This document shows positions 8,332 to 39,600 of a DNA stretch of 46,863 nucleotides, in pieces. The notes below the pieces were generated by a model, which ran no database searches, had not been told where the DNA came from, and was given only the letters and a program-made list of their open reading frames with translations. The position numbers were made by a program, and so were the translations under genes. Within the stretch, counting starts at the first letter, position 1. Every line of letters begins with the position of its first letter. Origin of the DNA: a virus; the IMG/VR virus record IMGVR_UViG_3300023180_000107, positions 1 through 46,863 of that record; one strand, written 5' to 3'.

Positions 8332-8847
8332 TTAATACCTTTTGAAATCAAGATCAAAATTTGTAGAGATAATAGTCTTCCTTTGATCAATATTTATATG
8401 AGGAGATCTATGTGGTAAAAAAGCTGGGAAAAAGATAATATCACCCTCATTAACCGGAAATCTACCTAAAGTTAAGAATTCAGTTGCATAATTAGGATTA
8501 GGTAGTTCTACAAAATAAACACAAGCAAAATGAGATTTAGGATGAGTATGCCAACCGAACTTAGAGCCTTTAGGATATTGTTGAAACCATACCGGGGGTC
8601 TTCGATAAATATTACAACCGAATTCTAGAGCTGTCTGTTCTGCAAATGGCCAAATAACTTTTAGTGCTTTATTTTCGTATGCGGTCTTGCGTTTACCGCA
8701 ATCTGGATAATCGTACCAATATCCTTCTTTGTTCAGCTGGATATTGTATTTGTGTTTATCCTGTTCGATAAGATCCAAAATCTTTTCTTTGTTTCTTTTT
8801 GCTACTTTCGGATCTTGTTGATAATGATAAATGTAGTGCTCAATCAT
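8332..8847 (-). CDS. Putative 2OG-Fe(II) oxygenase
   Basis: A 171-residue protein of the small phage 2-oxoglutarate/Fe(II) oxygenase type. The double-stranded beta-helix core shows WFQQYPKGSKFGWHTHPKSHFACVYFVELP with a proximal H100/H102 pair, EGDIIFFPAFLPHRSPH with distal H146, and RKTIISTNFDL with the 2OG-anchoring R156. Such enzymes hydroxylate proteins or small molecules; the substrate here is unknown. It sits between the second gp19-family gene and uvsY. Its promoter (8854-8882) places the -10 only 6 bases before the ATG, so the mRNA may be leaderless. Confidence 0.75.
   Translation of the reverse strand: MIEHYIYHYQQDPKVAKRNKEKILDLIEQDKHKYNIQLNKEGYWYDYPDCGKRKTAYENKALKVIWPFAEQTALEFGCNIYRRPPVWFQQYPKGSKFGWHTHPKSHFACVYFVELPNPNYATEFLTLGRFPVNEGDIIFFPAFLPHRSPHINIDQRKTIISTNFDLDFKRY
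8391..8398 (-). promoter_or_regulatory. Possible late promoter before uvsY
   Basis: TATAAATA on the minus strand, 65 bases before the uvsY ATG but inside the 2OG-like gene. T4 uvsY is expressed both before and during the late period, so a late promoter would be reasonable; an A+T-rich coincidence is equally possible. Confidence 0.25.
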
Positions 8848-21976: not shown

Positions 21977-24900
21977 TTAGTTTAATAGTGATCCAGCTGC
22001 ATTGTATACGTTGATCCTATAATATGTACCTTGTTGACCATCAAGTGTATCTGCATCAAGACCAGATCCTGCCCCATCTCTTGTTTTAATATCGGTAAAG
22101 ATCGTTGCACCGAAGTAAGAAGTTAATTGTGCAGAGTCGATTGCAAGATCTCTAGTAGATGCGATTGTACCACCACCTGTTAAACCAGTGCCTGCTGTGA
22201 TTGATACCGTCGAGTGATCGATATGCTCATCAGCTACGAATCCTGTTAGGTTATCGTGGTTAATAGAGCTTTCAAAATATGCTAAGAATTCAGCTGAATC
22301 GATAGCAAGGTCTCTTGTAGAAGCGATCGTACCGCCACCCGTTAAGCCTGTACCAGCGGTAATTGATACCGATGAGTGATCGATATGCTCATCAGCTACG
22401 AATCCAGAGAGGTTATCGTGATTAATTGAACCCTCAAAGTATGCTAAGAATTCAGCTGAGTCAATTGCAAGATCTCTGGTAGATGCGATTGTGCCGCCAC
22501 CTGTCAGACCTGTTCCTGCTGTGATCGACACTGATGTATGGTCAATGTGCTCATTTGCAACGAAACCAGAGAGGTTATCGTGGTTAATAGAGCCTTCGAA
22601 ATATGCTAGGAATTCTGCAGAGTCAATAGCAAGATCTCTAGTAGCTGCGATTGTACCACCGCCTGTTAGACCTGTTCCTGCTGTAATTGATACTGATGTA
22701 TGGTCAATATGCTCATTGGATACAAAGTTTGTAAGAGCATCGTGATCAATATTCGTTGCCGTAACTGCAGTTACCAGACCCTTACCATTAACAGTGATTG
22801 CTGGTACCTGTGATGAAGATCCGAATGATCCAACGTTACCGTTCACTGTTGCTAATGTAAGTACTAGATCAACAGGTGCTGAACCATTGAATGAAACATT
22901 TGGTGCTGTTGCATCACCCGAAGCAGAGAAGTTTCTACCAGTTGCAAGAGTTGTAGCTGTTGAAGCATTACCTGTGAGCGAACCAGTTACGTTACCAGTC
23001 ACATTACCTGATAAGTTACCTTCGAATGTAGTTGCTTTAACTACACCATATTGTGTACCAGCTGAATTTGGATCAATTGGTGCATCTGGTTCTGGATCGT
23101 ATCTGTTTAGGAATGTCCATTTATTTTCTGATACGTCGAAGTATAGACCAACGTGGGTGTATGCAGAATCGTTTCTGTTAGAGAAGAATCCTGTATCAAT
23201 ATCTGTTGCAGTAGCTGTGCCTGTCCATTTATCACCAACTGTGTGACCGGTTGTAGCACCAAAGTCGATCTCAATACCGTACGCACTGTCTAGTATCTGA
23301 GCAGCGCCTGTGATAGCAATACCCGTTGCTTCTGTACCGACAGATGAATCAAATCCCCATTCAAACGTATCAGGTGTTCCAGTAGCGTCAATCTTAACGA
23401 AGAATGACTTAGTTGCTTCATCGCCTGAGTAATGTCCAGAGTAGAATGCATCATCTAGGCCAGTTCCAACAAAGCTTGTACCAGCCTCACCAATCGTATC
23501 ACCAGCATTGAGGTACTGGAAGTTACCACCAATTTCTACATTTGCTGTAGAAGTAATGGTTTGTGTACCAGTAACATTTAAGTTACCGTCGATAGTTAAA
23601 TCACCACCGATGTGTGCAGCAGACTGAACTCTAAATCCAGCAACCGAATGGTTCTGCTGGTTGATAATAACTTTACCGTTATTAGGATCAGATTTAATAA
23701 CCCAACCGAGACACATCGGGAAGTTAGGATAAGCCGGGGCAGCATTCTGTAGTGCACCTGGTGTAAGGCCGGCGAAGAAGTTTTGACCTGCAGTAAGAGA
23801 GGATGTGTCAATGCCATCAATTACACCAGATACAACAATTTGTCCGTAAGAGTTATTTGGAATAGCTTCTGCTGAAAGACCCTGAACGTTATACTTAGCT
23901 GCGTCTGTTGCATCTGCTAGAGCAATTGTAGGAGATTCTCTGCCAGAATCGTTAACGAAGTTACCTGAGTAATAGAGTGGTTTACCTTTGGCAATTTCCA
24001 CGCCAGTGTTGTTGTACACCCTCTCAACTTCTTGCATACCAATTTCAATTGGATGATCGAAATCAGTATAATAGTTTAGATTCTTATGGAAAGGATCATA
24101 CCATAGAGCACCTTCTCTAAATCCAATATGACTATCTGCCCAACCAAGCTGGAACTGAATCTCACCAACGGTAGCTGAGTCTGCTTGGAAGCTTGTGATT
24201 GTAGCAGAATCTACTGTTAATTGACTAATATGACCAGTACCATAGTTTAGTGATACACCTGATATATTAGTTGCGATTGCAGAATCTGCGTTTAGTGCAT
24301 TTGTATTTAATGTATTATTATCAATAATACCGATATGTGCTGAATCTACAGATAATTGGCTAATCGTACCTGTTGTAGCATTTACTGTAGAATAGTTTGC
24401 TGACGTACCAGATATATTTGTAATCGAAGCAGAATCCGCCTGAAGTATTCCAAATCCGTTTATAATAGTCGGATAACTACCACCATCAGCAGTATTAATA
24501 GTAAAGGTAGTACTTGCAGAATCCCACGATGTGCTTGATACCCCAGCAACACTTACGGTTCCAATACTATCTACGAATCCTGATCCGTCAACTGTGACAA
24601 TAGGAACTAGTGATGCCGAACCATATACACCAGCAGTTACCGTTGTATTTGATCTAGTAAGTGTATGTGTATTCAGTGTTTGTATATGGGCTGAGTCTAC
24701 ATCAAGTTGACTAATTGTACCTGTTGTAGCATTTACTGTGCTATAATTTGCAGAGCTACCAGATACATTTGTTAATGATGCTGAGTCAGCATCAAGCGAA
24801 TTAGTTCTTAATGTATTGTTATCAATAATTCCGATGTGTGCAGAATCAACAGATAGTTGACTGATCGTGGCTGAATCCCCGAGCAGTGATCCGTAACTTG

Positions 24901-27900
24901 CAATACTACCAGAAATAATTTGAATATCTGCTGAGTCAGCTTCTAGATTAGTACTTGATACAGTAGTAGCACCTGTGAGTGAACCATACACCTTTGTACC
25001 GGTGCTAACTGTTTGAAGCCTAAGATCACCAGAGGAATCATTGATTTTTACACCATCATCCGCACCAGCTTGCAACCAAATTGGGTTACCATTATTTTTT
25101 GATGACAGATAGATGTCTTGTGCTTCAATGTAGATCCCACCGGTGGAATCTTTAATAACCAAATTAACAGGATTTCGGTTAATAATAGCATCATCGTTAT
25201 CACCGAATGCAAGTGATACGTTATCACCAAATCCTCTGATTGGTGTTGAAAATGATCCACCATCAACAGTATTAATTGTAAATACGCCAACTGATGAATC
25301 CCATGATGTACTTGATACACCAGCAACACTTACGGTTCCAATACTATCAACAAAACCTGAAGCATCAACTGTTACCACTGGAACAAGTGATGCTGAACCA
25401 TAAGCTCCTGCTATTACAGTTGTATTGGATCTTGATAAAGTATGGGTATTTAATGTTTGTACACGTGCGGAATCTGCATCAAATTGGCTAATATGACCAG
25501 TACCATAATTTAAAGTAGCACCAGAGATATCAGTTACAATAGCAGAATCAGCAGTAAGCGCTGCAGCATGTACAGTAGCGTAGTTAGAAGTAACACCAGA
25601 GATATCCGTAATAACTGCGGAATCTGCTGTCAGATTTGTTACTGTAGCAGAATCAGCTGTTACTGCACCTGATACATTTAATGCTTTATTTAATGCCCAG
25701 CGATCATCAGTAGAGGTATATGTTATAGTCGGTTTAGTACCGCCAGTGTATAATGCGCCACCAATAGTTAATCCCGCACCATCAATATCAACATTGTTTA
25801 CGGCTGAATCAGCGAGTACAATATTTTTATCATTTATAGTAACTTCTGTTGAATTAACAGTTGTTGTAGTACCTTGAACAGTTAGGTTACCAGCAATATA
25901 TGTGTTACCTGTACCCGTAATGTTTCCATTTACTGTTAGTCCAGCAGCGGTTAAAGTCGTAAAATTACCAGTACTATAATTTGCAGATGAGCCAGATACA
26001 TTAGTTATATTAGCTGAATCCGCATCCAAGGCATTCGTATTTAATGTATTATTATCAATTATGCCAATGTGCGCTGAGTCTGCAGAGAACTGACTAATTG
26101 TTCCAGTTGTGGCATTTACAGTTGTGTAGTTAGCAGATGTACCAGAGATATTAGTAACTGACGCCGAATCAGCAGTAAGTGCTGCAGCATGTGCAGTAGC
26201 GTAGTTAGAAGTAACACCGGAGATATCAGTTACAATAGCAGAATCTGCATTTAATGAATTTGTATTAATAGTATTATTATCGATAATACCAATATGTGCT
26301 GAGTCTACATCAAGCTGACTGATCGTACCTGTTGTAGCGTTTACTGAGCTGTAGTTTGCTGATGTACCTGATATATTTGTAACTACTGCAGAATCAGCAG
26401 TTAGATTTGTTACTGTAGCCGAATCAGCGTTCAACGTACCGGTAACGGTAGTACCAGTTAATGTAGTTTCTAATTTTTTAACACTTCCATAATATAGATC
26501 GACGCCTGCAAAAGGAGTAAATTCTGCAATTTTAGCACCACCGACATTATTTTTTATTAAGAAATGACCAGCACCATCAAGATCTAATTCAGTAGCCCCT
26601 GCTTCAATAACGGTTGTACCACCAGTGGTATGCCGTATCGATGCTTCATTAGCATCACCAAAGTATAATCTTTGATCGTCACCAAAACCATTAATAGTAG
26701 TTCTGAATATTCCTCCATCAGCGGTATTAATTACTAATTGCGCTGTTGAAGAATCCCATAATGTGCTACTAACGCCAGCGACTGATACTGTGCCGATACT
26801 GTCAACAAATCCTGAAGCGTCTAGAGTAACAATGGGAACAAGTGAAGCTGAGCCCCATGTTCCAGCATAACTTGTAGCACCTGAGCGAGTGATATTAGTA
26901 AATGTAGCAGAATCTGCGGTGACCGCACCATCAACATCAACTGCTCTATTGAAGTTAATTAAATCACCAGATGTTACGTACTTCATTTCCGGAGGTGTAG
27001 TAATACTTGCACCACCAAGTGTAATACCAGCACCATTAAGAGCAGTTAGGTCGGCTGCAGAATCTGCTAATGTAATATTCTTATCTGCGATATTAACTAC
27101 AGTTGAATTAACTGTTGTCGTTGTCCCATCAACCGTTAAATTTCCATGTACGGTAACCCCACTACTGAAATATGCAGAATTAAATGTAACGTTATCACTG
27201 ATACCAACTGGTTGTCCAATAGAAATAACCCCACCAGATGATTCGTATGTTACACCAGTACCAGCGACAAGATGTGCTCTTACTTCAGAAGCAGAAGGTC
27301 CTGTGTATGAGAAATTACCTGTAGCAGAATCGTAACTGAACGATCCGTCACCGCCTAAATCAAGTGCCTGGAAGTGTGCTCTTACTTCAGTTGCACTTGG
27401 ACCAGTATATGTAATATTACCAGTAGCAGAATCATAACTTAATGATCCATCCCCACCTTGATCAAGTACCTGGAAATATCCCCTTACCTGGGCTGTAGAT
27501 AGACCCGAATAGGTGAATGTGCCAGTAGCAGAATCATATGTAAATGTGCCATCCCCAGCTGCATCAATTGCTTGGAAATAACTTCTGATTGTTGCAGTTG
27601 ATACTGCATCACCAAGAGCAGAATCTACACGTGCCCTTGTGTAATATAAGTTATTACTTCCTTCAGCAAGGTCGTTTGTTGTATTACCTGCAAGACTTAA
27701 AGCAGCTGGATCACCAGATGTGGTCTTAACTGCAAAGCCACCATCTGATTCTTCAAGAGCAATAGTACCGAGCTGGATAGTTTGTCCAGAAAGATATAAC
27801 TTACGCCATTTATTAGTAGCACTACCAAGATCAAGTGCGCTGTCAGCATTAGGAATAAGACTGTGTGTAACTTGATCTGACGAATCAAGCATATTGATTC

Positions 27901-28192
27901 GAACATTACCATCACCACTAACGGTGAAGTGATCTGCATCAAATTTTGCAACACCGACAGAGGAATCTGTTGCATTATCTGCAGTAAAGGTAACGGTTCT
28001 ATTATCAACTACCCCAACCTTTGCAGTAAGAGGAGCTACGCCATCAAATGTAAGAATTTGTGCTGAACCGACTGATACTAAGCCTGTACCAGAGTCACCC
28101 GCAAAATTTAAATCACTACCACTTGCACGAACACTTCGTATAGGTGTTCCTACAATGACGCGTTTAACAATAGTTCTTTGAGCTCCGGCCAT
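21977..28192 (-). CDS. Very large tail fibre / adhesin (2071 residues)
   Basis: A repetitive fibre protein just upstream of the neck genes. The N-terminus (1-150) has LDLGSATNKWRKLYLSG (119-135), a motif common in phage fibre proteins. Three 34-residue repeats (203-304) follow. A long middle section is built on units containing DSAHIGIIDNNTL and ADSA...NISGTSANYS. A folded module at about 1355-1540 (ALWYDPFHKNLNYYTDF; ERVYNNTGVEIAKGKPLYYSG) comes next. Four 54-residue repeats near the C-terminus precede DADTLDGQQGTYYRI, and the protein ends VYNAAGSLLN. Such fibres bind the host surface. The C-terminal YNAAGSLLN echoes YDSDGTLLN in the protein encoded at 35288-36355. The assignment as fibre is firm; the place in the virion is inferred. 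Confidence 0.88.
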   Translation of the reverse strand: MAGAQRTIVKRVIVGTPIRSVRASGSDLNFAGDSGTGLVSVGSAQILTFDGVAPLTAKVGVVDNRTVTFTADNATDSSVGVAKFDADHFTVSGDGNVRINMLDSSDQVTHSLIPNADSALDLGSATNKWRKLYLSGQTIQLGTIALEESDGGFAVKTTSGDPAALSLAGNTTNDLAEGSNNLYYTRARVDSALGDAVSTATIRSYFQAIDAAGDGTFTYDSATGTFTYSGLSTAQVRGYFQVLDQGGDGSLSYDSATGNITYTGPSATEVRAHFQALDLGGDGSFSYDSATGNFSYTGPSASEVRAHLVAGTGVTYESSGGVISIGQPVGISDNVTFNSAYFSSGVTVHGNLTVDGTTTTVNSTVVNIADKNITLADSAADLTALNGAGITLGGASITTPPEMKYVTSGDLINFNRAVDVDGAVTADSATFTNITRSGATSYAGTWGSASLVPIVTLDASGFVDSIGTVSVAGVSSTLWDSSTAQLVINTADGGIFRTTINGFGDDQRLYFGDANEASIRHTTGGTTVIEAGATELDLDGAGHFLIKNNVGGAKIAEFTPFAGVDLYYGSVKKLETTLTGTTVTGTLNADSATVTNLTADSAVVTNISGTSANYSSVNATTGTISQLDVDSAHIGIIDNNTINTNSLNADSAIVTDISGVTSNYATAHAAALTADSASVTNISGTSANYTTVNATTGTISQFSADSAHIGIIDNNTLNTNALDADSANITNVSGSSANYSTGNFTTLTAAGLTVNGNITGTGNTYIAGNLTVQGTTTTVNSTEVTINDKNIVLADSAVNNVDIDGAGLTIGGALYTGGTKPTITYTSTDDRWALNKALNVSGAVTADSATVTNLTADSAVITDISGVTSNYATVHAAALTADSAIVTDISGATLNYGTGHISQFDADSARVQTLNTHTLSRSNTTVIAGAYGSASLVPVVTVDASGFVDSIGTVSVAGVSSTSWDSSVGVFTINTVDGGSFSTPIRGFGDNVSLAFGDNDDAIINRNPVNLVIKDSTGGIYIEAQDIYLSSKNNGNPIWLQAGADDGVKINDSSGDLRLQTVSTGTKVYGSLTGATTVSSTNLEADSADIQIISGSIASYGSLLGDSATISQLSVDSAHIGIIDNNTLRTNSLDADSASLTNVSGSSANYSTVNATTGTISQLDVDSAHIQTLNTHTLTRSNTTVTAGVYGSASLVPIVTVDGSGFVDSIGTVSVAGVSSTSWDSASTTFTINTADGGSYPTIINGFGILQADSASITNISGTSANYSTVNATTGTISQLSVDSAHIGIIDNNTLNTNALNADSAIATNISGVSLNYGTGHISQLTVDSATITSFQADSATVGEIQFQLGWADSHIGFREGALWYDPFHKNLNYYTDFDHPIEIGMQEVERVYNNTGVEIAKGKPLYYSGNFVNDSGRESPTIALADATDAAKYNVQGLSAEAIPNNSYGQIVVSGVIDGIDTSSLTAGQNFFAGLTPGALQNAAPAYPNFPMCLGWVIKSDPNNGKVIINQQNHSVAGFRVQSAAHIGGDLTIDGNLNVTGTQTITSTANVEIGGNFQYLNAGDTIGEAGTSFVGTGLDDAFYSGHYSGDEATKSFFVKIDATGTPDTFEWGFDSSVGTEATGIAITGAAQILDSAYGIEIDFGATTGHTVGDKWTGTATATDIDTGFFSNRNDSAYTHVGLYFDVSENKWTFLNRYDPEPDAPIDPNSAGTQYGVVKATTFEGNLSGNVTGNVTGSLTGNASTATTLATGRNFSASGDATAPNVSFNGSAPVDLVLTLATVNGNVGSFGSSSQVPAITVNGKGLVTAVTATNIDHDALTNFVSNEHIDHTSVSITAGTGLTGGGTIAATRDLAIDSAEFLAYFEGSINHDNLSGFVANEHIDHTSVSITAGTGLTGGGTIASTRDLAIDSAEFLAYFEGSINHDNLSGFVADEHIDHSSVSITAGTGLTGGGTIASTRDLAIDSAEFLAYFESSINHDNLTGFVADEHIDHSTVSITAGTGLTGGGTIASTRDLAIDSAQLTSYFGATIFTDIKTRDGAGSGLDADTLDGQQGTYYRINVYNAAGSLLN
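22097..22744 (-). repeat. Four tandem 162-bp repeats in the large fibre gene
   Basis: Four in-frame copies of a 54-residue unit beginning HDNL and containing EHIDHTSVSITAG, GTGLTGGGTIASTRDL and IDSAEFLAYFE. Corresponding bases recur at 162-base spacing (GGTTATCG at 22249, 22411 and 22573, with a variant near 22735). The copies are very similar at the DNA level, so copy number could change by recombination. Confidence 0.9.
27281..27586 (-). repeat. Three tandem 102-bp (34-residue) repeats in the large fibre gene
   Basis: Units such as RGYFQVLDQGGDGSL and SYDSATGNITYTGPSATEV, each 34 residues, at residues 203-304 of the fibre. Confidence 0.85.
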
Positions 28193-28203
28193 TCATATAT
28201 CCT

Positions 28204-28554
28204 TTATGTAACTGATGGTGTTACGTTAATTCTTCCTTCGAGAATCCTCTCGATCACGGTTTCACCATCACTATCTACAAAGGATAGTTCTACATCATAA
28301 ACATATCTGCCTTTTCGTAAGGCAGCCGTTTGAGTATTTGTTAGACTAATAGTAGCTTTTCCCTCGGTCTGTGGGGAAATAAGCAGTCCCTGGAATGTAG
28401 TAGCATCACCATCACTGTCACTGTAACTTCTTTTCATCTTTGCAGCAATAGAATGATTTTCTAAATTTTTTGCTGCACCATCTGTTGTTTCTAAGTGAAG
28501 CTCAACTGTAAGATCGGTACCTTGTTCAACATCGAATTCTTCATATTCTGCCAT
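28204..28554 (-). CDS. Small beta-rich virion protein, probably fibre- or baseplate-associated
   Basis: A 116-residue protein: EEFDVEQGTDLTVELHLETTDGAAKNLENHSIAAKMKRSYSDSDG, then ISLTNTQTAALRKGRYVYDVELSFVDSDGETVIERILEGRINVTPSVT. The pattern (EQG, then a strand pair, a short QT.AL..GRYVYDVE hairpin, and an EG...VTP ending) resembles small Ig-like or upper-baseplate proteins next to fibres in many phages. No enzyme motif is seen. It is the first gene after a late promoter (28586-28593) and stands 11 bases before the large fibre gene, so the two are probably co-expressed. Confidence 0.75.
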   Translation of the reverse strand: MAEYEEFDVEQGTDLTVELHLETTDGAAKNLENHSIAAKMKRSYSDSDGDATTFQGLLISPQTEGKATISLTNTQTAALRKGRYVYDVELSFVDSDGETVIERILEGRINVTPSVT

Positions 28555-28609: not shown

Positions 28610-29377
28610 CTATTTATAATAACAAGAAAAGATGTTATCAGAATCCAAGAATAAATCTTTTGCCCCACCATTGAATACAGCTATTGTTGGTTCAGACATA
28701 TAATAGCCCTGAGTGGAACCATCAAACCTCTGACTTTTAACTTTGAATTTATATGCAGTACTTTGCCACGATCGGTCCTTGAGTAGTATTTCAGGGATAT
28801 TCGTAACAGGGTAATAGTCTTTTAGTATTTCAAGATACTCTAGTTTATCCCTGTGTAGGTTCCACAAATATCTGCACACACCTTTGTATTCATCTATAAT
28901 AATATATGGGTTTTCTTCAAAGTGCTCATAGATTTCGCGCAATTCAAATGAATTAAAAATCATAATAGATGAATTAACTTTAGTAAAGTTGTATCTTTGT
29001 TGTTTTATATCAACATCCATCATACGGGAATCGATACTTCCATAACAAATTTTTATTTTATGGGGGTTTACATTGCTAAAAAGATAGTCTATATTATTCT
29101 GTATTACTACATCCAAATCCAAAAAAAGTGTTCTACCCCCTTCACGGTACAGGTCAGGATTAAAAACACAAAGCTTTGGCCAGAAGCCATCAATACCACT
29201 TTCTACCTCATCTGAAATATCAACTGGATTAATCCCATCATCTAACCCATCTGGGATTTCCGTAAGACAATAAAAATCGAATGGTAAAGACAAATTCTTC
29301 CTTACCATTCTATAGAGTCTGTTAACAAATTCTGGCTCGTATTTGGTGCCAGTCTTGACACACACTACGTTAATCAT
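28610..29377 (-). CDS. Glycosyltransferase, GT-A type
   Basis: A 255-residue putative glycosyltransferase. It shows the GT-A hallmarks GFWPKLCVFNPDLY (64-77) and RTLFLDLDVVIQNNID with a D87-L-D89 metal/nucleotide-sugar motif, followed by KVNSSIMIFNS and a C-terminal FNGGAKD. It has no membrane segment, so it acts in the host cytoplasm. Its ATG overlaps the stop of the 2OG-like gene (ATGA). The substrate is unknown; lying among fibre genes, it may glycosylate virion proteins or a host surface precursor. The stretch around 29067 also holds a plus-strand promoter-like element. Confidence 0.85.
   Translation of the reverse strand: MINVVCVKTGTKYEPEFVNRLYRMVRKNLSLPFDFYCLTEIPDGLDDGINPVDISDEVESGIDGFWPKLCVFNPDLYREGGRTLFLDLDVVIQNNIDYLFSNVNPHKIKICYGSIDSRMMDVDIKQQRYNFTKVNSSIMIFNSFELREIYEHFEENPYIIIDEYKGVCRYLWNLHRDKLEYLEILKDYYPVTNIPEILLKDRSWQSTAYKFKVKSQRFDGSTQGYYMSEPTIAVFNGGAKDLFLDSDNIFSCYYK
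28611..28618 (-). promoter_or_regulatory. Second late-promoter-like TATAAATA box
   Basis: TATAAATA on the minus strand, overlapping the glycosyltransferase stop codon and 25 bases upstream of the first box. The pair may add strength, or only one copy may be used. Confidence 0.45.
29067..29095 (+). promoter_or_regulatory. Antisense promoter-like element inside the glycosyltransferase gene
   Basis: GGGGGTTTACA (TTTACA 29067-29072), 17 bases, TATATT (29090-29095) on the plus strand. It is the same combination as the promoters at 5544 and 9438, but here no plus-strand gene is recognisable downstream; a transcript would be antisense to the glycosyltransferase, the 2OG-like gene and further fibre genes. 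Confidence 0.4.
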
Positions 29378-30045
29378 AACGGATCTTCAATATCCTCAAT
29401 AATCTGTTCCCAAATGTTTTCAGCTTCAGCAAACACATATGCAACACTAATACGGAGACAGTCTGTTGATGCTGCATGGTAACAGAGCTTATCTGGTTGA
29501 TGGTACGCACCAAAGTAACCCATCTTACACTGCCATCCAGGTACATCCTGAACTCTCACACGTTCTTTCTTTTCAAGGTCCCAGTAATCAAACCATCCAT
29601 CCCCGTTTTCTGACCAAGAGAAAATAACATTGTACCCCGCAGCATTTGCATTATTATGCCAAGATATCCAGCCTCCAGGAGGATAGAGTGTAACAAGAGT
29701 ATTTCTTTTAGCAGAAAGTTCTGCCATTAATTCATTATTTAATTCTTGGGCTTTATTCCTGTACTCTTCTATAATTTTTAGATCCGTATTCCCGGTATCT
29801 CTTTCTGCCCCTGGCATCAAACCAGAATACGAGTGCATACTCTCTGGAAATCCGTCATGTTCTCTGCCTCGCGCAATAATTCTTTCAAGATAGTCATCCG
29901 CAAGCCACCTGTCTCTGGTGTGGTCTTTTGAATTTAAAGGTAGATCCTTTTGTAAGTTACCTTCTTGATACTTAGTAAGAACAAAATTTTTGAACTTATT
30001 CAAAGATTCCATTACCATCTCATTGTTGATTTTAATATCTCTCAT
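29374..30045 (-). CDS. Putative 2OG-Fe(II) oxygenase-like protein
   Basis: A 223-residue protein. The C-terminal half has the order of metal and substrate motifs expected in a 2OG oxygenase jelly roll: YPPGGWISWHNN (H130-N-N132 in place of the usual HxD), NVIFSWSENGDGWFDYWD, and CYHAASTDCLRIS (H190 and R198-x-S). The HxN in place of HxD makes activity less sure. The N-terminal half is helical and charged. It is coupled by ATGA overlaps to a glycosyltransferase on each side, which suggests a single pathway modifying one target. A cupin-like non-enzymatic fold is the alternative. Confidence 0.65.
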   Translation of the reverse strand: MRDIKINNEMVMESLNKFKNFVLTKYQEGNLQKDLPLNSKDHTRDRWLADDYLERIIARGREHDGFPESMHSYSGLMPGAERDTGNTDLKIIEEYRNKAQELNNELMAELSAKRNTLVTLYPPGGWISWHNNANAAGYNVIFSWSENGDGWFDYWDLEKKERVRVQDVPGWQCKMGYFGAYHQPDKLCYHAASTDCLRISVAYVFAEAENIWEQIIEDIEDPL

Positions 30046-30854
30046 ACTCTAAAGTCCTTATCTTTTTGAAGAGTTGCAGAATGATGGACTATAATTGGTG
30101 GATTGTTCACTAATCTGTGCTTACCAGCATTTGATCCAGTCTGGTTGAACTTAAAACTTGTAAACCAATTCCATCTGTAGTTATCTTCAAATTTACCTAT
30201 CTTAAGATCTTTGTACTTATCCATTTCGTTAGTCATCCACCACAACGTAAATTGATCCCATCTTAACATAGTGATGGGTGTTCCTTCATGCCACCATGGG
30301 GTTGAAGTTGGTTTATAACCTCTTCCTCTATAATGATTGTACCATTCTTCTTGTACTAGAAACATCTCCCACCAATCTTTCATAAAATCTCGAATGATTG
30401 GTTTTCTCATATCATATAGACAAACACCACCACATAGAACCAAATCAATAACTTTATCGGTACCTTCAATTGGGGCGTCAACCTCTACAAAAGAGGCTGC
30501 AGCAACCTTGTCTTTTGTAAGTCTTACAAATGAAAGATCATTATCACCAAGTTCATCCCATACATTTACAATATCTTCATGCTCACAAACAGAATCGGCA
30601 TCAACGTAGAATGTTATATCATACGGGCTGTTTGCCATACCATACAATTTACCACGAATATGTTCAGGACAATCCAGAATATTTTCGCAGTAATCTTTTG
30701 CTCTGTTATCAATCCATTCGGGGTGGGAAGTGAAGAAAGTAATTCTTGCATCTTCGTAGTGATCCAGGATAGATTCTACGAGATTCATAGCAGAGGAGTA
30801 GAATGCGGGTTTGTTTGTAGCTACAATTACAAATCCTTTAGACGGATTGCTCAT
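30042..30854 (-). CDS. Glycosyltransferase-like protein
   Basis: A 270-residue protein with a GT-A-like Rossmann start (GFVIVATNKPAFYSSAMNLVESILDHYEDARITFFT) and a DxD motif at DITFYVDADSV (D85-A-D87), followed by LVLCGGVCLYDMRKPIIRDFM. An upstream TTG (30860) extends the frame by two codons, but ATG 30854 is the more likely start. It overlaps the end of the preceding gene by 17 bases and is coupled by ATGA to the 2OG-like gene. It is less similar to classical families than the glycosyltransferase at 28610, but the DxD context supports the call. Acceptor unknown. Confidence 0.7.
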   Translation of the reverse strand: MSNPSKGFVIVATNKPAFYSSAMNLVESILDHYEDARITFFTSHPEWIDNRAKDYCENILDCPEHIRGKLYGMANSPYDITFYVDADSVCEHEDIVNVWDELGDNDLSFVRLTKDKVAAASFVEVDAPIEGTDKVIDLVLCGGVCLYDMRKPIIRDFMKDWWEMFLVQEEWYNHYRGRGYKPTSTPWWHEGTPITMLRWDQFTLWWMTNEMDKYKDLKIGKFEDNYRWNWFTSFKFNQTGSNAGKHRLVNNPPIIVHHSATLQKDKDFRV

Positions 30855-31287
30855 TCTCAATTTCTTCTTTCAATAACATAACAGTGTAGGCCAACAATTC
30901 ATAACGATTTTTGGACTTACGCATACGCGCCTTCATCTTCCTATTGGAAGAATTCTTAACGGAATCGATCTCAAATACCTCTAGCTTTGCATTAAAGAGT
31001 TCTTCTAGCTTTTGAGCTTGATCTCTTTCTTTCTTTTGCATAGCCTCAGCTTCACGACGTTTCCGGTGTCGCTCTTCGCGTTCTTGCGTATTTTTATCGA
31101 TTTTAGCAATATCGTTCTGCTTTAGAATTTCTTCCCAGTCAGGATTGATCTTACCACCGCTGGTGTACTTGAAGATTTTTGCAGTAGAAGAAGTTTCTTT
31201 ACCATCGTCATGCTCAATGACTAACTTACAGGTAATACGATCCTTCTGATAATTTTCCCAAAAGGGATGTTTCCATTGTTTTTTCAT
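30838..31287 (-). CDS. Small charged coiled-coil protein in the fibre region, function unknown
   Basis: A 149-residue protein with a short globular N-terminus (KKQWKHPFWENYQKDRITCKLVIEHDDG, then KIFKYTSGGKINPDWEEILKQND) and a lysine/arginine/glutamate-rich helical second half (EREERHRKRREAEAMQKKERDQAQKLEELF; MKARMRKSKNRYELLAYTVMLLKEEIENE). It follows the tetrapeptide-repeat fibre gene by 13 bases. A position directly after a fibre gene plus a charged helical build would suit a fibre assembly chaperone, but no family is recognised. Confidence 0.7.
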   Translation of the reverse strand: MKKQWKHPFWENYQKDRITCKLVIEHDDGKETSSTAKIFKYTSGGKINPDWEEILKQNDIAKIDKNTQEREERHRKRREAEAMQKKERDQAQKLEELFNAKLEVFEIDSVKNSSNRKMKARMRKSKNRYELLAYTVMLLKEEIENEQSV

Positions 31288-31300
31288 TTCACTTTCCTAA

Positions 31301-33805
31301 TTAAGCAATACGCATGTATAAGGTATAGGTCTCTATCGTTTCATTTGTTGCCTGAATGGTTTCTCCAAGGTAATCCCCAATATAGTTACCTATGTAGTCA
31401 CCAATGAAGTTACCGACGTAATCTCCAATGAAGTCTGAACTATATATGTCTGTGGATACACGTGTAAAATCTGTTTCATAGTTTCCAGTATAATCTGCAG
31501 TATATTCTATACCAGTATAATTACCCGTATAACCTTGATCGTATTGACCCACATAATCACCAGCGTACTGTATCAAACTGTTTCTAGTAAAGTTAGTTTC
31601 ATAATCACCGGTGTAGGAATCTGTCGAATTACGGGTAAAATCACCTAATGAATTTCGGGTTGATACACGTGTAAAATCTGTTTCATAGTTGCCAATGTAG
31701 TTACCAGTATAATCTGCAGCATAGTTACCAGTATAGTTCGCAGCAGACACCCGGGTAAAATCTGTTTCATAGTTACCAGTATAGTTCGCAGCAGATGCTC
31801 GCGTGTAGTTTACAGTAGATGTGCGCTGGCTATTTCGAGTAAAGTTAGAAACATAATTCCCAGTGTAGTTAGCAGCAGATGCTCGCGTGTAGTTTACAGT
31901 AGACGTACGTTGTGAGTTTCTAGTAAAGTCTGTAGCATAGTTACCAGTATAGTTTGCAGCGGATGCCCGGGTGTAGTTTACTTCAGAGGTACGTTGTGAG
32001 TTTCTAGTAAAGTTAGAAACATAATTCCCAGTGTAGTCACCGGTGTAGTCTCCCAGGAAGTTTGCTGTCGAAATGAGTGTAGAAACTCTAGTAAAGTTAG
32101 ACAGATAGTTACCTGCAAAGTTACCAGCGAAGTTACCAGTATACACTACTTGACGTCTAAAACTTCGCGCAAAGCCATTGTAGAAGGTGGAGAATTGCAC
32201 GCACGTCGCAAAATCCCGCACGAAGTCACGCACATAGTTACCTACATAGTCCGTTTCATAATTACCCGTAAAGTCACCAGTATAATCTACGGTAGAAGTT
32301 CGTTGACTGTTTCGGGTTGATACACGTGTAAAGTCTGTAGCATAGTTACCAGTATAGTCACCAAGGAAGTTACCACCTACATAGTCACCAGTATAGTTAG
32401 CTGCTGAAACTCGAGTAAAGTTTGCGGTATAATTACCCGTATAATCACCAAGGAAGTTACCACCTACATAGTCACCAGTATAGTTTGCAGCAGACGCTCG
32501 AGTAAAGTCTGTAGCATAGTTACCAGTATAGTCACCAAGGAAGTTACCACCTATATAATCACCAGTATAGTTTGCAGCAGACGCTCGAGTAAAGTTTGAA
32601 ATATAATTACCAGTATAGTTTGCTGCAGATTCTCTTGTGTAATTCTGATTGGATATTCTTGTTGAATCTCTTGTGAAATTACTTAGGTAATTTCCGGTGT
32701 AGTCACCAGTATAATCGGGATTATAGTTACCAGTATAGTTACCAGTAGATACTCGAGTAAAGTTGGATATGTAATCACCAATGAAGTCAGCAGCGTAATC
32801 CACTGCATAATTACCATCATACGTTCCTTCATAGACTGCAGTGAAAGCATCCGCAAAATTATTTGTAGAAACTCTAGTAAAGTTAGACAGATAGTTACCT
32901 GTATAATCACCTGTGTAGTTCAGTAGTGAGTTACGAGTAAAGTTCTGAGTAGAATCTCTTGTTGAATTACGTGTGCTATCTCGTGTGTAGTTTACATCAG
33001 CAGTTTGCTGTTTAGTATCAGTAGCAGTACCTTGTGATACCCAAGTACCACCAGATGGTGCACCTGCAGCAGAAGATCGAAGCTCATAGGTACCAATCCC
33101 AGTTGTCATGATACGGTTCTGAGCAACTTTACCTAAAGTGTATCCTATCTCACCAACAGTAGCTTCTTGGAAACCATCGTATGATTCACCAAGATCTGTC
33201 TCGTCTGTATAGATCCCTTTGATACGTACATACTTTGTAGTAGTTGGTGCAGTCATTGCAGTACGTTGCCAAATACTATAATTAACCGCCGTGCCATCAG
33301 TACGATTATCCGTAAAGACATTTGATAGTGCTGCTGTGTAATCCCCACTTGGTGCCGATGTTGCAAGTTTGTAAGTACCAGGATATTGGTAGGTGTGAAT
33401 ACGTGTATTCAATTCATCGACCAAAAGATTCATATCTGAATCTGCCATCTCTCTGGCTTGGAAACTACCGTCACTTTTAAATCCTAGTGGTCGACGGAAT
33501 CCATCAGAATCTACATAGGATGCTGTACCACTATTTTGATAGATGGTAGTATTCGTAGTAGTGGTAGTAAGAGATGAACCTGGATGGGTTCCAATAGCCT
33601 GATCAAACTGTGTGTCAGTATATGTACCAATAGCATCAGCACCTGCACCAGATGAATTAATACGTGATACTGAGGTGTTAGCAATAGTCGATAATTTTAA
33701 TCCGGCTCGGTATGCAAGGTAATCCAATTCATCTGAATCGAATTGTTGTAAGTCACCCCCAGACCCCTGGAGCTTAAGCGGGGTTTGTAAAGTAGATAAA
33801 GCCAT
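31301..33805 (-). CDS. Tetrapeptide-repeat fibre protein, long paralogue (834 residues)
   Basis: Residues 1-270 form a conserved head (DADAIG-type segment IGTYTDTQFDQAIGTHP at 59-75, TTTTTNTTIYQNSGTA at 80-95, STGIGTYELRSS-like segment near 234-245). From about 272 to 818 the protein is a nearly unbroken four-residue repeat in which Tyr, Phe or Ser appears every fourth position (YTGN, YATD, FTRA, SAAN and variants). A non-repeat island (DFATCVQFSTFYNGF, then RSFRRQVVYTGNF, 531-559) interrupts it. The C-terminus ETIQATNETIETYTLYMRIA is shared with the neighbour at 33805-35277. The regular repeat points to a beta-solenoid fibre shaft. It is coupled to the preceding paralogue by TAATG. Confidence 0.85.
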   Translation of the reverse strand: MALSTLQTPLKLQGSGGDLQQFDSDELDYLAYRAGLKLSTIANTSVSRINSSGAGADAIGTYTDTQFDQAIGTHPGSSLTTTTTNTTIYQNSGTASYVDSDGFRRPLGFKSDGSFQAREMADSDMNLLVDELNTRIHTYQYPGTYKLATSAPSGDYTAALSNVFTDNRTDGTAVNYSIWQRTAMTAPTTTKYVRIKGIYTDETDLGESYDGFQEATVGEIGYTLGKVAQNRIMTTGIGTYELRSSAAGAPSGGTWVSQGTATDTKQQTADVNYTRDSTRNSTRDSTQNFTRNSLLNYTGDYTGNYLSNFTRVSTNNFADAFTAVYEGTYDGNYAVDYAADFIGDYISNFTRVSTGNYTGNYNPDYTGDYTGNYLSNFTRDSTRISNQNYTRESAANYTGNYISNFTRASAANYTGDYIGGNFLGDYTGNYATDFTRASAANYTGDYVGGNFLGDYTGNYTANFTRVSAANYTGDYVGGNFLGDYTGNYATDFTRVSTRNSQRTSTVDYTGDFTGNYETDYVGNYVRDFVRDFATCVQFSTFYNGFARSFRRQVVYTGNFAGNFAGNYLSNFTRVSTLISTANFLGDYTGDYTGNYVSNFTRNSQRTSEVNYTRASAANYTGNYATDFTRNSQRTSTVNYTRASAANYTGNYVSNFTRNSQRTSTVNYTRASAANYTGNYETDFTRVSAANYTGNYAADYTGNYIGNYETDFTRVSTRNSLGDFTRNSTDSYTGDYETNFTRNSLIQYAGDYVGQYDQGYTGNYTGIEYTADYTGNYETDFTRVSTDIYSSDFIGDYVGNFIGDYIGNYIGDYLGETIQATNETIETYTLYMRIA
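31350..32995 (-). repeat. 12-base / four-residue repeat tract in the long fibre paralogue
   Basis: About 130 imperfect copies of a four-residue unit [Y/F/S]-x-x-[N/D/A/V]. Higher-order blocks are visible, such as the near-identical segments ANYTGDYVGGNFLGDYTGNY at about 412, 440 and 469, and NSQRTSTVNYTRASAANYTG copies near the middle, showing recent DNA duplication. Confidence 0.85.
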
Positions 33806-35277
33806 TATGCAGTCCTAACATATAACGTATATGTTTCAATAGTTTCGTTTGACGATTGGATTGTCTCTCCAGCGTAATCACCTATATAGTTACCTAAGTA
33901 ATCTCCAATAAAGTTACCTACATAGTCACCGGTATAATCTCCAGTGTATTCATTTTGATATGCTGCATCATACTGTCCAACGTACGTAATAGGACCAACA
34001 TAGTTTGGTGTATAATCACCAGCATAATCACCTTCATAATTACTTATATAGTTACCAATAAAATCGCCAGTGTATTCGCCAAGATAATCCGTGGAATAAT
34101 CAGCAGGACCTTCGTAATCCCCTACGAAATCACGCTCAAAGTTACCAGTATACACTACTTGACGCCTATAAGCTTGGGCTTCAAAGCCATTGAAAAAGTC
34201 GCTGAAGCTTACGCACGTCGCAAAATCTCTGACGAAGTTTCTCAGATAGTTACCAAGGTAAGTATCCACACCTGTGTATGTAGCTACATAGTTACCAGTA
34301 TAGGTGTCATCTGTATAGTTACCCTCGAAGTCAGCACCAGAATACGTTCCGGCATATTCCCCTACATAATCAGCAGCAATGTATTGAGTGGTACCAACAT
34401 AATCACCATCATACACGGCCCCATAATTAGAAACGTAATTAGATTGACTTATTCTTGTAAAGTTCTGAGTTGAATCTCTAGTTGAAATTCTTGTACTGTC
34501 TCTTGTATAATTCTGATCAGCAGTTTGTTGTTTTGTGTCTGTTGCAGTCCCTTTAGCCACCCATGTGCCAGGATCTGTCGGCGCGCCATCTGCAGAACTA
34601 CGTAACTGATACGTACCAATACCAGTGGACATAATACGTGTTTTTGCACGCTGGCCAAACGTTGCCTGCATTTCTACGGTACTCATACGTTGCAGATTTT
34701 TAGTACCTTCAACAAGTCTCACAGGCTTTACCACGGTTGGTGGCGTCATAGCCTGACGTTTCCAAATAGTGTAATCTACTGAAGTACCATCAGTTCTTGT
34801 ATCTGTGAATACATTTGCAATGTGTGCCGAGTAATCTGCGCTCGGTGCAGATGTAGCAAGTCTGTAAGTGCCAGGATAATCACCAGCAAATATTGTGAGT
34901 AGTAGACGATCAACCACAGCGTTAAGCTGCGTGTCATTCAGTGCTTCAATCTCACCAGGATCTTGATCCCAAAGTACAGGTTTAGAAAATGGTGGATCTT
35001 CTGGTGCTGTACCAGTGTTTTGATAGATTGTAGTATTTGTAGTAGTTGTGGTGAAAGATGAAGCAGGATGTGTGCCTACAGCTTGATCGAACTTCGTATT
35101 CGTATAGGTACCGACAACATTCCCGGTACCGGTACTGAGAGAAGCAACCTTTGATTGACCAGCTTGCGCTAGTTGGATACCAGCCTGGTATGCTGCATAA
35201 TTTTCTTCTGTGGCTGTAATTTTTTTAAGATTACCATCACCGTCGTCGATCTTAAGAAGGGCGTCAATAATTGCCAT
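33805..35277 (-). CDS. Tetrapeptide-repeat fibre protein, short paralogue (490 residues)
   Basis: Paralogue of the following 834-residue gene. The head (1-255) shares GTYTNTKFDQAVGTHP (56-71), TTTTTNTTIYQNTGTAP, YPGTYRLATSAPS, and STGIGTYQLRSSADGAP. Residues 257-470 are the four-residue repeat (YVGN, FIGD, YLGN, YIGD and the like), but with more irregular five- and six-residue steps than in the long copy. The same island is present (FVRDFATCVSFSDFFNGF, then AYRRQVVYTGNF, 347-380). The C-terminus ETIQSSNETIETYTLYVRTA is nearly identical to its neighbour. It is probably a fibre shaft made with, or alternative to, the long one. Confidence 0.85.
   Translation of the reverse strand: MAIIDALLKIDDGDGNLKKITATEENYAAYQAGIQLAQAGQSKVASLSTGTGNVVGTYTNTKFDQAVGTHPASSFTTTTTNTTIYQNTGTAPEDPPFSKPVLWDQDPGEIEALNDTQLNAVVDRLLLTIFAGDYPGTYRLATSAPSADYSAHIANVFTDTRTDGTSVDYTIWKRQAMTPPTVVKPVRLVEGTKNLQRMSTVEMQATFGQRAKTRIMSTGIGTYQLRSSADGAPTDPGTWVAKGTATDTKQQTADQNYTRDSTRISTRDSTQNFTRISQSNYVSNYGAVYDGDYVGTTQYIAADYVGEYAGTYSGADFEGNYTDDTYTGNYVATYTGVDTYLGNYLRNFVRDFATCVSFSDFFNGFEAQAYRRQVVYTGNFERDFVGDYEGPADYSTDYLGEYTGDFIGNYISNYEGDYAGDYTPNYVGPITYVGQYDAAYQNEYTGDYTGDYVGNFIGDYLGNYIGDYAGETIQSSNETIETYTLYVRTA
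33867..34509 (-). repeat. 12-base / four-residue repeat tract in the short fibre paralogue
   Basis: About 50 units with an aromatic residue at every fourth position, with the shared island (about 34138-34245) within it. Confidence 0.8.
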
Positions 35278-36581: not shown

Positions 36582-36610
36582 ATTATACCGCCAATGCAAT
36601 CACTCGTAAA
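36582..36610 (-). promoter_or_regulatory. Promoter-like TTTACG-17-TATAAT at the end of the large structural gene
   Basis: TTTACG (36610-36605), 17 bases, TATAAT (36587-36582) on the minus strand, with GCGG before the -10. It differs by one base from the gp45/gp55 promoter class, but the ATG of the next gene is only two bases after the -10, so a transcript would begin inside that gene. Confidence 0.3.
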
Positions 36611-39600
36611 TCCCTAATTACTGGTACTTTAGAACTATTGGTAGAAAGCATAACAACTTTTACCTGGAATTCTGTAAAGTCGTCAAGCGTACCACCTAAC
36701 CCACCAGCGAGATATTCATATTCTCTAAATCTGAATCCTGTTTCATCAGATGCTGGTTGTACACCTTCTACCGTTACTTCTGTAAATGATGCCTCATTAA
36801 TATCACCTTCAGCATTTGTTCTATAGTAGACTTCGATTTCTGCTTCATTTGGACGTGTTGCACCAAGCAGGATCTTTAGACCCTTTGCAGATTCTTCAAG
36901 ACCAATAACATTTGTAAGGTGTTTAGCAAGTGCTGAACCGTCATCTGGATCAGTCTCTGCTACGAATGTGTCCAGCGGTTCATTGAATGATCCTGCTACG
37001 GCTGCAGCTGCTGGTCTATCAATAATGTTATTGATCATTGTTACCGATGCACGTTGCATATCAAGTACAGGTGATACTTTTGAATTTGTTGTGCTAAAGC
37101 TCACCTTGTAAGTATTTGAACGAATACCAGCACCAAGTTCACTTGTTTCATTTGTTGCAGTTGCAATTACCTTCGGTGAATTAAATCTGATAAGCGATTT
37201 ATCTTGGATATTTCTATATGTTGTATCTTTCACATATGGTACTTGTAATGAACCACCGGAGTGTGCATAAGATCTACCAGAAGTAAACTTAGCCTCGTAA
37301 GTAAGATCGGTAAGGATTGGAAGAAGTGGTTCACCGATAAATGGTAGTGCCATATCACCTTGTGCTTGGTGACTTGCAGTAATTGCCGTACCACCACCAA
37401 CTGCATCACTTGTTGCTGAAGCGCCTGCTGTGAATGTGTATCCTGTACCGTCAATAGCTACGATTGTTCTATTACCATTTAGGTTACCTGCTGAAATACC
37501 CCCTGTTGCAGTAGCACCTGCAATTGTTACTGTATTACCAACGAACAGACCATGGTTAGGATGTTTGACCTGTACAACTGCACTGCCATTGGTTGTGGTA
37601 AGAGGATTATTAAGTAATCCCCCAAACTGTGTTCTACCAGCAAGAAGTGTTGGTGCAAGATCTACGTTTTCAATAATTGCATAACCACCTGCAGTATCAA
37701 AATCTGCACGGTAAAGCTGGAAAGTAAGATCTTTTGTTTGATCTGCCTCCCATGTCCTTGCGTTCTGAGATTTAAATAGTGAACCAAGTGTTGGCTGACT
37801 ATTAACACGTCTTTCAGTTGTACCTAATACAAATGCATATGTTTCAGCAATATATGCTTTATATGCGTTACTATCACTTCCAATTACAATACAATGTTCA
37901 CCATTTGGAAGATAGATTGGTTCATCGAATTCGAATGTTGTAGCTACTGAAGCATCTGTACTTGTAGTAATAGAGCTAGGTGCAAGGAATACTGTTGATC
38001 CTGGATATGTCTCTGTTGCTGATGGATAACCATTAACTACTGGACGAAGTTCTACAAATGCCGGTACGCCATCGGATGCTTTTGTTTCAAAGAAGATATC
38101 GATCTTTGTTGCAAAGATACCAGTTCTTTCTGTGACAAAGAATGTTTGTGCTAGTGGATCTGGACCGGGCTCGGCCTGACCAGATCCATCAGGGGTAGAA
38201 ACTCTTCTAGAAGTACCAGATCCTGTAAGTGTTACGTGTCTCGTAGAAAGGAATGTTCTCTGTCGTGTTTCTAGTACACCAGAAGAAATGAAAGTTGTTG
38301 ATGCTTGTGAAATAGCTTCAGTTAGGTCATATGCAGAAACATCTAAAAGAGTAAATTCTGCCTCACCAGTTCTAAACTTGGTAGAATCTGTTGAAGGTAT
38401 AAAGAATGATCCTGTAATAGTACCGTTAGTATCTGAAATCAGATTTGTAGCACCATCTGGGTGAGCTGTTGCATTTGCATATTGATCACCGTAATCAACA
38501 ACGTTTGATGCTACACTTTGGAAAGCTTCTTCTCTTAGCCAGCTAGCAACTGGTTTCTTATTGAAAAATCCGAAGTATCTTGTATTTGGTCTTAGACCCT
38601 GTGCTTTAAAGAATACCTTTATACTTCTCATAAACGGAATAGAGACTCTTGAAACTACTCTATCACTAATAAGCTCACGCGTGGTTTCTATACTAGCGAC
38701 CGAGATACTACCTGTTGTTTGGGTGTCACCAGTATTATTAGTTTGTTGAGCAAGTGTTTGACCTACAACCACACCGTTAACGTTGATATCATTTATACTA
38801 GTTCCTGCCCAGTTCCAAATCTGTTGGTTAGCAAGAAGACGATCAGATTGTCTAATTTTTGTCCCACCACTTACTGTTCTATCTGGATTGTATCTTATTT
38901 CTTTCCATGTATCAGATGCTGGTGATAGCTTAATTTTACCTTTACCTTGAACAACTGCGAATGGATTAACATTAATTGCGCTAGATGCCAACGGTTGATT
39001 AATATAACTTACGTGGGTATAATTCAGATATACATTATCACCTTTTAGAATAACGTTAGATGACTGTGATGAATCATAAGCAAGAGGAACGTTTTTCTCA
39101 ATCGCTCTTGGTTTCATAACCTTACCTTGAGGATCGATAGCTGCTCTATAATCAATACCTGTTGTCAGTGATCTCTGGTGATCTGCAAAGTTATCTACGA
39201 AGATACCAGATTTGAATCGAGTATTATCTGCCGAATCAAGTACACTGAATGCCTGTGTATCAAGCTCAAGAAGTGAGAGTGATGTAAGTTCTTCTAAATT
39301 GTCAATTCTTTTTTCAAGACGACCGATATCTGCCATTGTGTATCTCTTAGCATCAATACGTGTTGATACCAAGTCACTGTCATTAACAGTATAAGGATTC
39401 ATCTGAACTCTGAAAAGTTCAAGTTCATCTGGTGAGATACTTGGGAATTGTGGCTGAAGATTTGGTTGACCCTCTCTAACTGATAGTACGCCATCTGTAT
39501 CAATTACGAGAATAGCATTCTTTGGAAGGTAGTACTCTACGTCAGTTGTAATTAGATCGGTGTTCTGTGGGATCTCGTTGATACGTGCACCTGATCCAAA

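Follow-up and report, generated by a model that had tools for sequence, protein, structure and literature searches.

The window analysed here, the whole stretch of 46,863 nucleotides from IMG/VR record IMGVR_UViG_3300023180_000107, is part of a T4-like myovirus of the marine type. It has a GC content of 39% and carries its recognised structural genes on the minus strand. A module of predicted enzyme genes sits between the gene of a DUF4815 protein (36583-41697) and the neck genes, next to two genes for tetrad-repeat fibre proteins, called REP here (Table 1). An earlier note on this DNA had described three of the genes, GTA, OX and GTB, as joined by ATGA overlaps and enclosed by structural genes, and the sequence confirms this arrangement at 28610-30854. 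Transcription runs in the order GTA, OX, GTB, with an ATGA overlap at both the GTA/OX and the OX/GTB junctions. The gene o149 precedes GTA with an overlap of 17 bp. The product of the gene at the downstream edge matches phrog_1084 (E 5e-21) and phrog_3304, 'L-shaped tail fiber protein assembly' (E 5e-13).

Table 1. Genes of the putative modification module and its neighbours in the window
Feature	Coordinates	Strand	Product	Place or role
GTA	30042-30854	-	270 aa; DAD motif D85-A86-D87; predicted GT8-like GT-A glycosyltransferase	module core
OX	29374-30045	-	223 aa; H130-x-N132...H190...R198-x-S200; predicted 2OG-oxygenase fold	module core
GTB	28610-29377	-	255 aa; DLD motif D87-L88-D89; predicted second glycosyltransferase	optional
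o149	30838-31287	-	149-aa charged protein	between repeat fibre and GTA
REP-834	31301-33805	-	conserved N-terminal domain of ~270 aa and tetrad-repeat shaft	proposed substrate
REP-490	33805-35277	-	second tetrad-repeat protein; N-terminal domain common to REP-834	
LtfC-like	28204-28554	-	L-shaped-tail-fibre-assembly-like protein	downstream edge of module
Fibre-like	21977-28192	-	fibre-like structural protein, 2071 aa	downstream of module

Homologues of GTA, OX and GTB were found in the same gene order in many contigs, at identities down to ~33-40%. The pN/pS ratio is 0.18-0.28 for OX, 0.31-0.36 for GTA and 0.42-0.54 for GTB. Since distant homologues keep the gene order and pN/pS is low, the frames are not due to chance, and judged from these ratios the module genes are under purifying selection.

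A search of viral contigs with the OX protein returned 24 relatives, and the gene order is unchanged in nearly all of them. Profile searches gave 473 relatives of OX and 269 of GTA, the best 80 of each were fetched, and the OX sequences were clustered at 90% identity into 74 clusters. GTA adjoins OX in 72 of the 74 clusters, the LtfC-like gene is found downstream in 69, and o149, upstream of OX in 72, is one of the module's most regular neighbours. The three enzymes had been regarded as one cassette; GTB, however, lies downstream of OX in only 19 of the 74 clusters and is ruled out as a core member. The unit conserved across these neighbourhoods is REP-o149-GTA-OX, with GTB as an optional addition. 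A repeat protein is encoded upstream in 71 of the 72 OX clusters that have enough sequence to test. The 72nd (L077), an exception by the pattern used to score repeats, has in the same place a stretch of 1814 residues made of PYTGDF/PYTGNF-type repeats, in a gene whose start is cut by the contig end. The link is retained in a rearranged locus (L075), where a second REP gene stands between GTA and OX, and in another locus (L073) the REP gene comes directly before OX. OX accompanies GTA in 118 of 119 loci, the remaining contig being too short for OX.

The linkage was also followed from the side of the fibre. Contigs were retrieved by the N-terminal domain of REP alone, with the enzymes unused, which gave 90 distinct loci. 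Of these, 51 continue for over 2.5 kb beyond the final REP gene, and all 51 have both GTA and OX (each reverse scan covering the best 80 matches, with a REP profile made from OX-linked sequences). The OX proteins of these 51 loci form 46, 35 and 12 clusters at 90, 70 and 50% identity, respectively. In the first reverse scan, each REP locus that lacks OX is cut off within the repeat gene or shortly behind it, apart from one that stops within GTA. When all loci are pooled, OX is beside REP in 107 of 107. The association of the enzymes with tetrapeptide-repeat fibres that the earlier note had envisaged is thus near-perfect in both directions, in every testable OX cluster and in all 51 REP loci, and regular occurrence of the GTA-OX pair without the fibre was not seen in the 72 testable clusters. 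Shared ancestry contributes to these counts, and the linkage could partly reflect a fixed gene order inherited within one phage group.

Among 50,697 phage records searched by tblastn, that of phage C48C1 is the only one in which OX and GTA were found. A scan of genome contigs for a cellular origin found none, because the sole MAG contig obtained looks phage-derived. This contig, JAAXIF010000028.1 (L163, L164), is labelled as a Sphingobacteriales MAG, carries a T4-like terminase, a tail tube, uvsY and REP-GTA-OX, and appears to be a phage contig mis-binned with a bacterium. A limited literature search found no paper describing a fibre-oxygenase-glycosyltransferase linkage or an HxN oxygenase.

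The REPN profile recognises the N-terminal domain of REP-834 and matches REP-490 with E 3e-111, the latter also having a period of 4. For REP-834, self-identity at period 4 is 0.27, against 0.02-0.06 when the shift is 2, 3 or 5-7; the tetrad consensus of the REP shafts is [N/D]-[Y/F]-x-[G/R]. The best period is 4, 8 or 12 in 159 of 162 non-redundant REP shafts. Asn or Asp occupies position 1 in 56% of the tetrads. The repetitive shafts contain 11% Tyr and 15% Thr and abound in aromatic, Asn/Asp and hydroxyl-bearing side chains. The shaft in the window (554 aa) has a single Pro and no Lys, and the medians over the 162 shafts are 0.8% for Pro and 0.2% for Lys. As the shaft is nearly devoid of both residues, collagen-type hydroxylation, and Pro/Lys chemistry of that kind in general, is ruled out for it by composition. 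The repeats, with their many N-x-S/T units, had been named as natural targets, but Thr or Ser at +2 from tetrad position 1 is no commoner after Asn (0.36) than after Asp (0.39), and is found at 0.63 after Thr. Selection for N-glycosylation sequons in REP is therefore ruled out, N-x-S/T being a by-product of the repeat. Shaft length varies widely among phages, and the REP homologue of C48C1 is a single 10-kb gene (L025:8666-18709).

The AF2 model of GTA has a pLDDT of 96.5, and its fold matches include glycogenin (Z 16.6), Skp1 galactosyltransferase (15.7), LgtC (14.7) and UGGT (14.5). In the DxD metal motif, D85 and D87 are invariant in 63 sequences. Compared with the HxxGxxK motif, the C-terminus has invariant H257 and S259 and a nearly invariant K264, with the spacing off by one and no Gly. 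At the level of the predicted fold GTA looks like a GT8-type enzyme. Searches of Pfam (GT8 included, E up to 1), PHROG and NCBIfam gave no match for GTA, and we do not file it as a GT8 member because the GT8 Pfam match is lacking. GTB matches the glycosyltransferases of PHROG 1962 (E 2.4e-9), with D87 and D89 invariant, and a PDB sequence search with it gave chance-level matches only (Skp1 galactosyltransferase, E 1.5). We treat GTB as accessory because it belongs to PHROG 1962 and has weak relatives in other phages. Some phages have duplicated or expanded sets of GTB-type transferases near the module (L028:525-1857, L016:808-2333, L189:9507-10882), which suggests diversification of the glycan. 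Searches with o149 gave no informative Pfam or PHROG match and no known family; the protein is possibly a chaperone or adaptor for the REP fibre.

OX was modelled by AF2 with a pLDDT of 93 (72-sequence alignment), and its best PDB matches among those listed by Foldseek are proteins with the 2OG-oxygenase fold. After re-alignment, the model matched PHD2 (Z 10.6), PiuC (10.4; rmsd 2.8 over 144) and the P4H of P. putida (10.2). The best re-aligned matches are mostly protein hydroxylases, and AlkB-like enzymes are also high among the Foldseek matches. The model has the double-stranded beta-helix core fold of the Fe(II)/2-oxoglutarate oxygenase superfamily. By sequence, OX had no match in Pfam, PHROG or NCBIfam at E up to 1, a PDB search gave chance-level matches only (an SH3-domain protein, E 0.02), and PADLOC returned nothing useful for OX or GTA. 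The enzyme assignments that the earlier note had made from motifs therefore stand for OX and GTA at the level of the fold, through the AF2 models, and for GTB at profile level.

Canonical 2OG oxygenases have an HxD/E...H motif (PMC4543633). In OX this triad is replaced by HxN...H, without exception in 193 unique sequences; H130, N132, H190 and R198 are identical in all of them, distant paralogues included, and position 200 is always Ser or Thr. The places of these residues in the AF2 model fit those expected from the fold: H130 is the end of a core strand, and H190 and R198 open the penultimate and the last strand (198-205), respectively. On the last strand of the core, where members of the superfamily have a basic residue for the C5 carboxylate of 2OG, often as RxS/T, the OX model has R198-x-S/T. 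As read from the alignment, an Asn that never varies takes the place of the acidic iron ligand, so we do not file OX as a canonical member of the superfamily. The HxN...H...R combination is a constrained and apparently undescribed predicted active site. We found no published test of Asn at the position of the acidic ligand.

The effect of losing the carboxylate can be judged from related enzymes. AspH is active with HxG, with water at the place of the acidic ligand and two His as the only protein ligands (PMC13168262, PMC8252765). FIH keeps some activity when its Asp ligand is changed to Gly, but not when it is changed to Ala or Glu, and halogenases, also two-His members of the superfamily, tolerate loss of the carboxylate as well (PMC8252765). 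Because AspH and Gly-FIH work in this way, the lack of a carboxylate in OX does not show inactivity; the loss of the canonical HxD/E nevertheless leaves room for an inactive OX or for another reaction. OX might thus be a catalytically dead scaffold or chaperone for fibre assembly, with GTA alone glycosylating the Tyr, Thr and Ser hydroxyls already on the fibre. The absence of Asp or Glu at the metal position from all 193 sequences would fit, as would the best structural match of GTA, glycogenin, which is a Tyr glucosyltransferase, and the Tyr and Thr content of the shafts. However, we consider a dead OX fairly unlikely: both His and the Arg of the 2OG-binding type are invariant, which a dead site would not need, and AspH and the halogenases are catalytic without the carboxylate (PMC8252765). 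The invariance of the remaining site residues argues for function.

Taken with the linkage, these predictions make it rather likely that GTA-OX is a dedicated, phage-encoded modification module for the REP fibre, in an oxygenase-plus-glycosyltransferase version, and the enzyme pair probably decorates the repeat fibre chemically. We infer REP as the substrate, an active OX and the following order of steps. REP would be made first and possibly held by o149. OX, its acidic iron ligand exchanged for Asn, would oxidise equivalent side chains at many points of the repeat shaft, and GTA would add a sugar either to the hydroxyl thus formed or to one already present on Tyr, Thr or Ser. Where present, GTB would extend or vary the glycan. 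The decoration may alter the stability of the fibre, its binding to receptors or how visible it is to competitors, which would be the benefit to the phage. Candidate residues are Asn/Asp at tetrad position 1, the aromatic residue at position 2, Thr/Ser and Arg. By analogy, our guess is that an AspH-like reaction on Asn/Asp would fit the carboxylate-free site of OX and the N/D position of the tetrad, and that glycogenin-like glucosylation of Tyr would fit GTA.

For the sugar step, modification of the host envelope is a serious rival. The glycosyltransferases, with OX acting on a sugar or lipid, would remodel the surface polysaccharide of the host against superinfection, and their location in the fibre region would follow from co-evolution of fibre and receptor. 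Pelagimyophages have a comparable genome region with fibres, in which sugar transferases, mostly GT8, are concentrated, and the passages of PMC7029224 on this host-recognition cluster interpret the transferases as modifiers of the host O-chain. The main text of that paper does not contain the word 'oxygenase', and its passages on the cluster draw no link to tetrad repeats. GTA is likewise GT8-like by fold, with LgtC, an LPS enzyme, among its best matches. However, remodelling of the host surface leaves unexplained why GTA and OX are tied to one fibre family (51/51, 107/107) and why the transferase is constantly paired with an oxygenase whose best re-aligned matches are mostly protein hydroxylases, although AlkB-like enzymes rank high in Foldseek; we hold it to be unlikely.

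Oxygenase and glycosyltransferase pairs for DNA hypermodification also exist in phages, and OX might hydroxylate a base that GTA then glycosylates, as in the TET-type pathways. AlkB structures occur among the fold matches of OX, and C48C1 encodes a DNA methyltransferase. The module, however, lies inside a structural operon and is strictly tied to the repeat fibre, OX has no TET/JBP match in Pfam at E up to 1, and GTA has a GT8-like GT-A fold, whereas the T4 DNA glucosyltransferases have the GT-B fold. A role in DNA modification is therefore very improbable.

Hydroxylation-coupled glycosylation of proteins is best known from eukaryotes and one giant virus. In Dictyostelium and other protists a PHD-fold oxygenase is followed by sugar transferases, the PHD homologue hydroxylating Skp1 and so enabling its glycosylation (PMC4543633). 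Both steps have structural counterparts here, as Dictyostelium PHD (6t8m) is among the fold matches of OX and Skp1 galactosyltransferase (6mw5) among those of GTA. However, the Skp1 pathway modifies Pro on a soluble eukaryotic protein, while the phage shaft is almost without Pro, and its hydroxylase has HxD where OX has HxN. Mimivirus L230 is a lysyl hydroxylase/glucosyltransferase. That virus encodes enzymes that modify collagen, as shown for R699 (PMC9546862), and resembles the phage in having its own enzymes for a type of repetitive fibrous protein that it also encodes. It is, however, a eukaryotic giant virus whose target is Lys of Gly-X-Y collagen, and the phage shaft is essentially without Lys. 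AspH, a 2OG protein hydroxylase, shares with OX the lack of an acidic metal ligand, and its substrates, Asp and Asn, are the commonest residues at position 1 of the REP tetrad. Unlike AspH, which has Gly and water at the ligand position, OX has an invariant Asn; no sequence match between them was found, and the best fold matches of OX are of the PHD, P4H and PiuC types. The absence of AspH from the 50 listed structural neighbours of OX is uninformative.

We know of no oxygenase step in the glycosylation of the mycobacteriophages Che8 and Rita. These phages have glycosyltransferase genes and, in the passages of PMC11256854 citing Freeman 2023, glycans on virion proteins; in contrast to the case proposed here, the glycans described there are on major capsid proteins, and the phages are unrelated. 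The proposed module would be of a kind that has broad precedents in Skp1 and mimivirus collagen, but with other enzymes, another type of substrate and an unusual oxygenase site. If the fibre is indeed modified, fibres would be glycoproteins in many marine phages, and some phage glycosyltransferases could be read otherwise than as modifiers of the host envelope. Furthermore, the HxN family would be a large natural set of oxygenase-fold proteins in which to ask whether Asn can stand in for the acidic ligand of the iron.

Paralogues of OX with the same HxN motif are also present away from REP, and the enzyme family is therefore not specific to fibres. Of the 80 contigs fetched, 73 have a gp19 tail-tube gene immediately upstream of such a paralogue, and 78 have uvsY immediately downstream of it. 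The gp19-uvsY slot of the window (8332-8847, minus strand) holds a different 2OG-Fe(II) oxygenase (PF13759/phrog_81), while that of C48C1 holds an HxN paralogue, as in most of the 80 other contigs. A slot in common with a recognised oxygenase family lends weak, indirect support to OX being an oxygenase. A broader proposal is that OX represents a new class of active 2OG oxygenases with an invariant Asn at the ligand position. Together with the GT8-like transferase it would oxidise and glycosylate hundreds of equivalent residues of REP, perhaps Asn/Asp or Tyr, into a glyco-fibre without a known counterpart, and the HxN paralogues, such as the one beside the tail-tube gene, would serve other virion proteins. 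We put this forward tentatively, as a possibility that is somewhat doubtful in its full extent. Phage C48C1 has a third OX paralogue (L165:40130-40804) with a WHTNYD motif, which lies outside the module and adjoins a NifU-like gene for Fe-S assembly.
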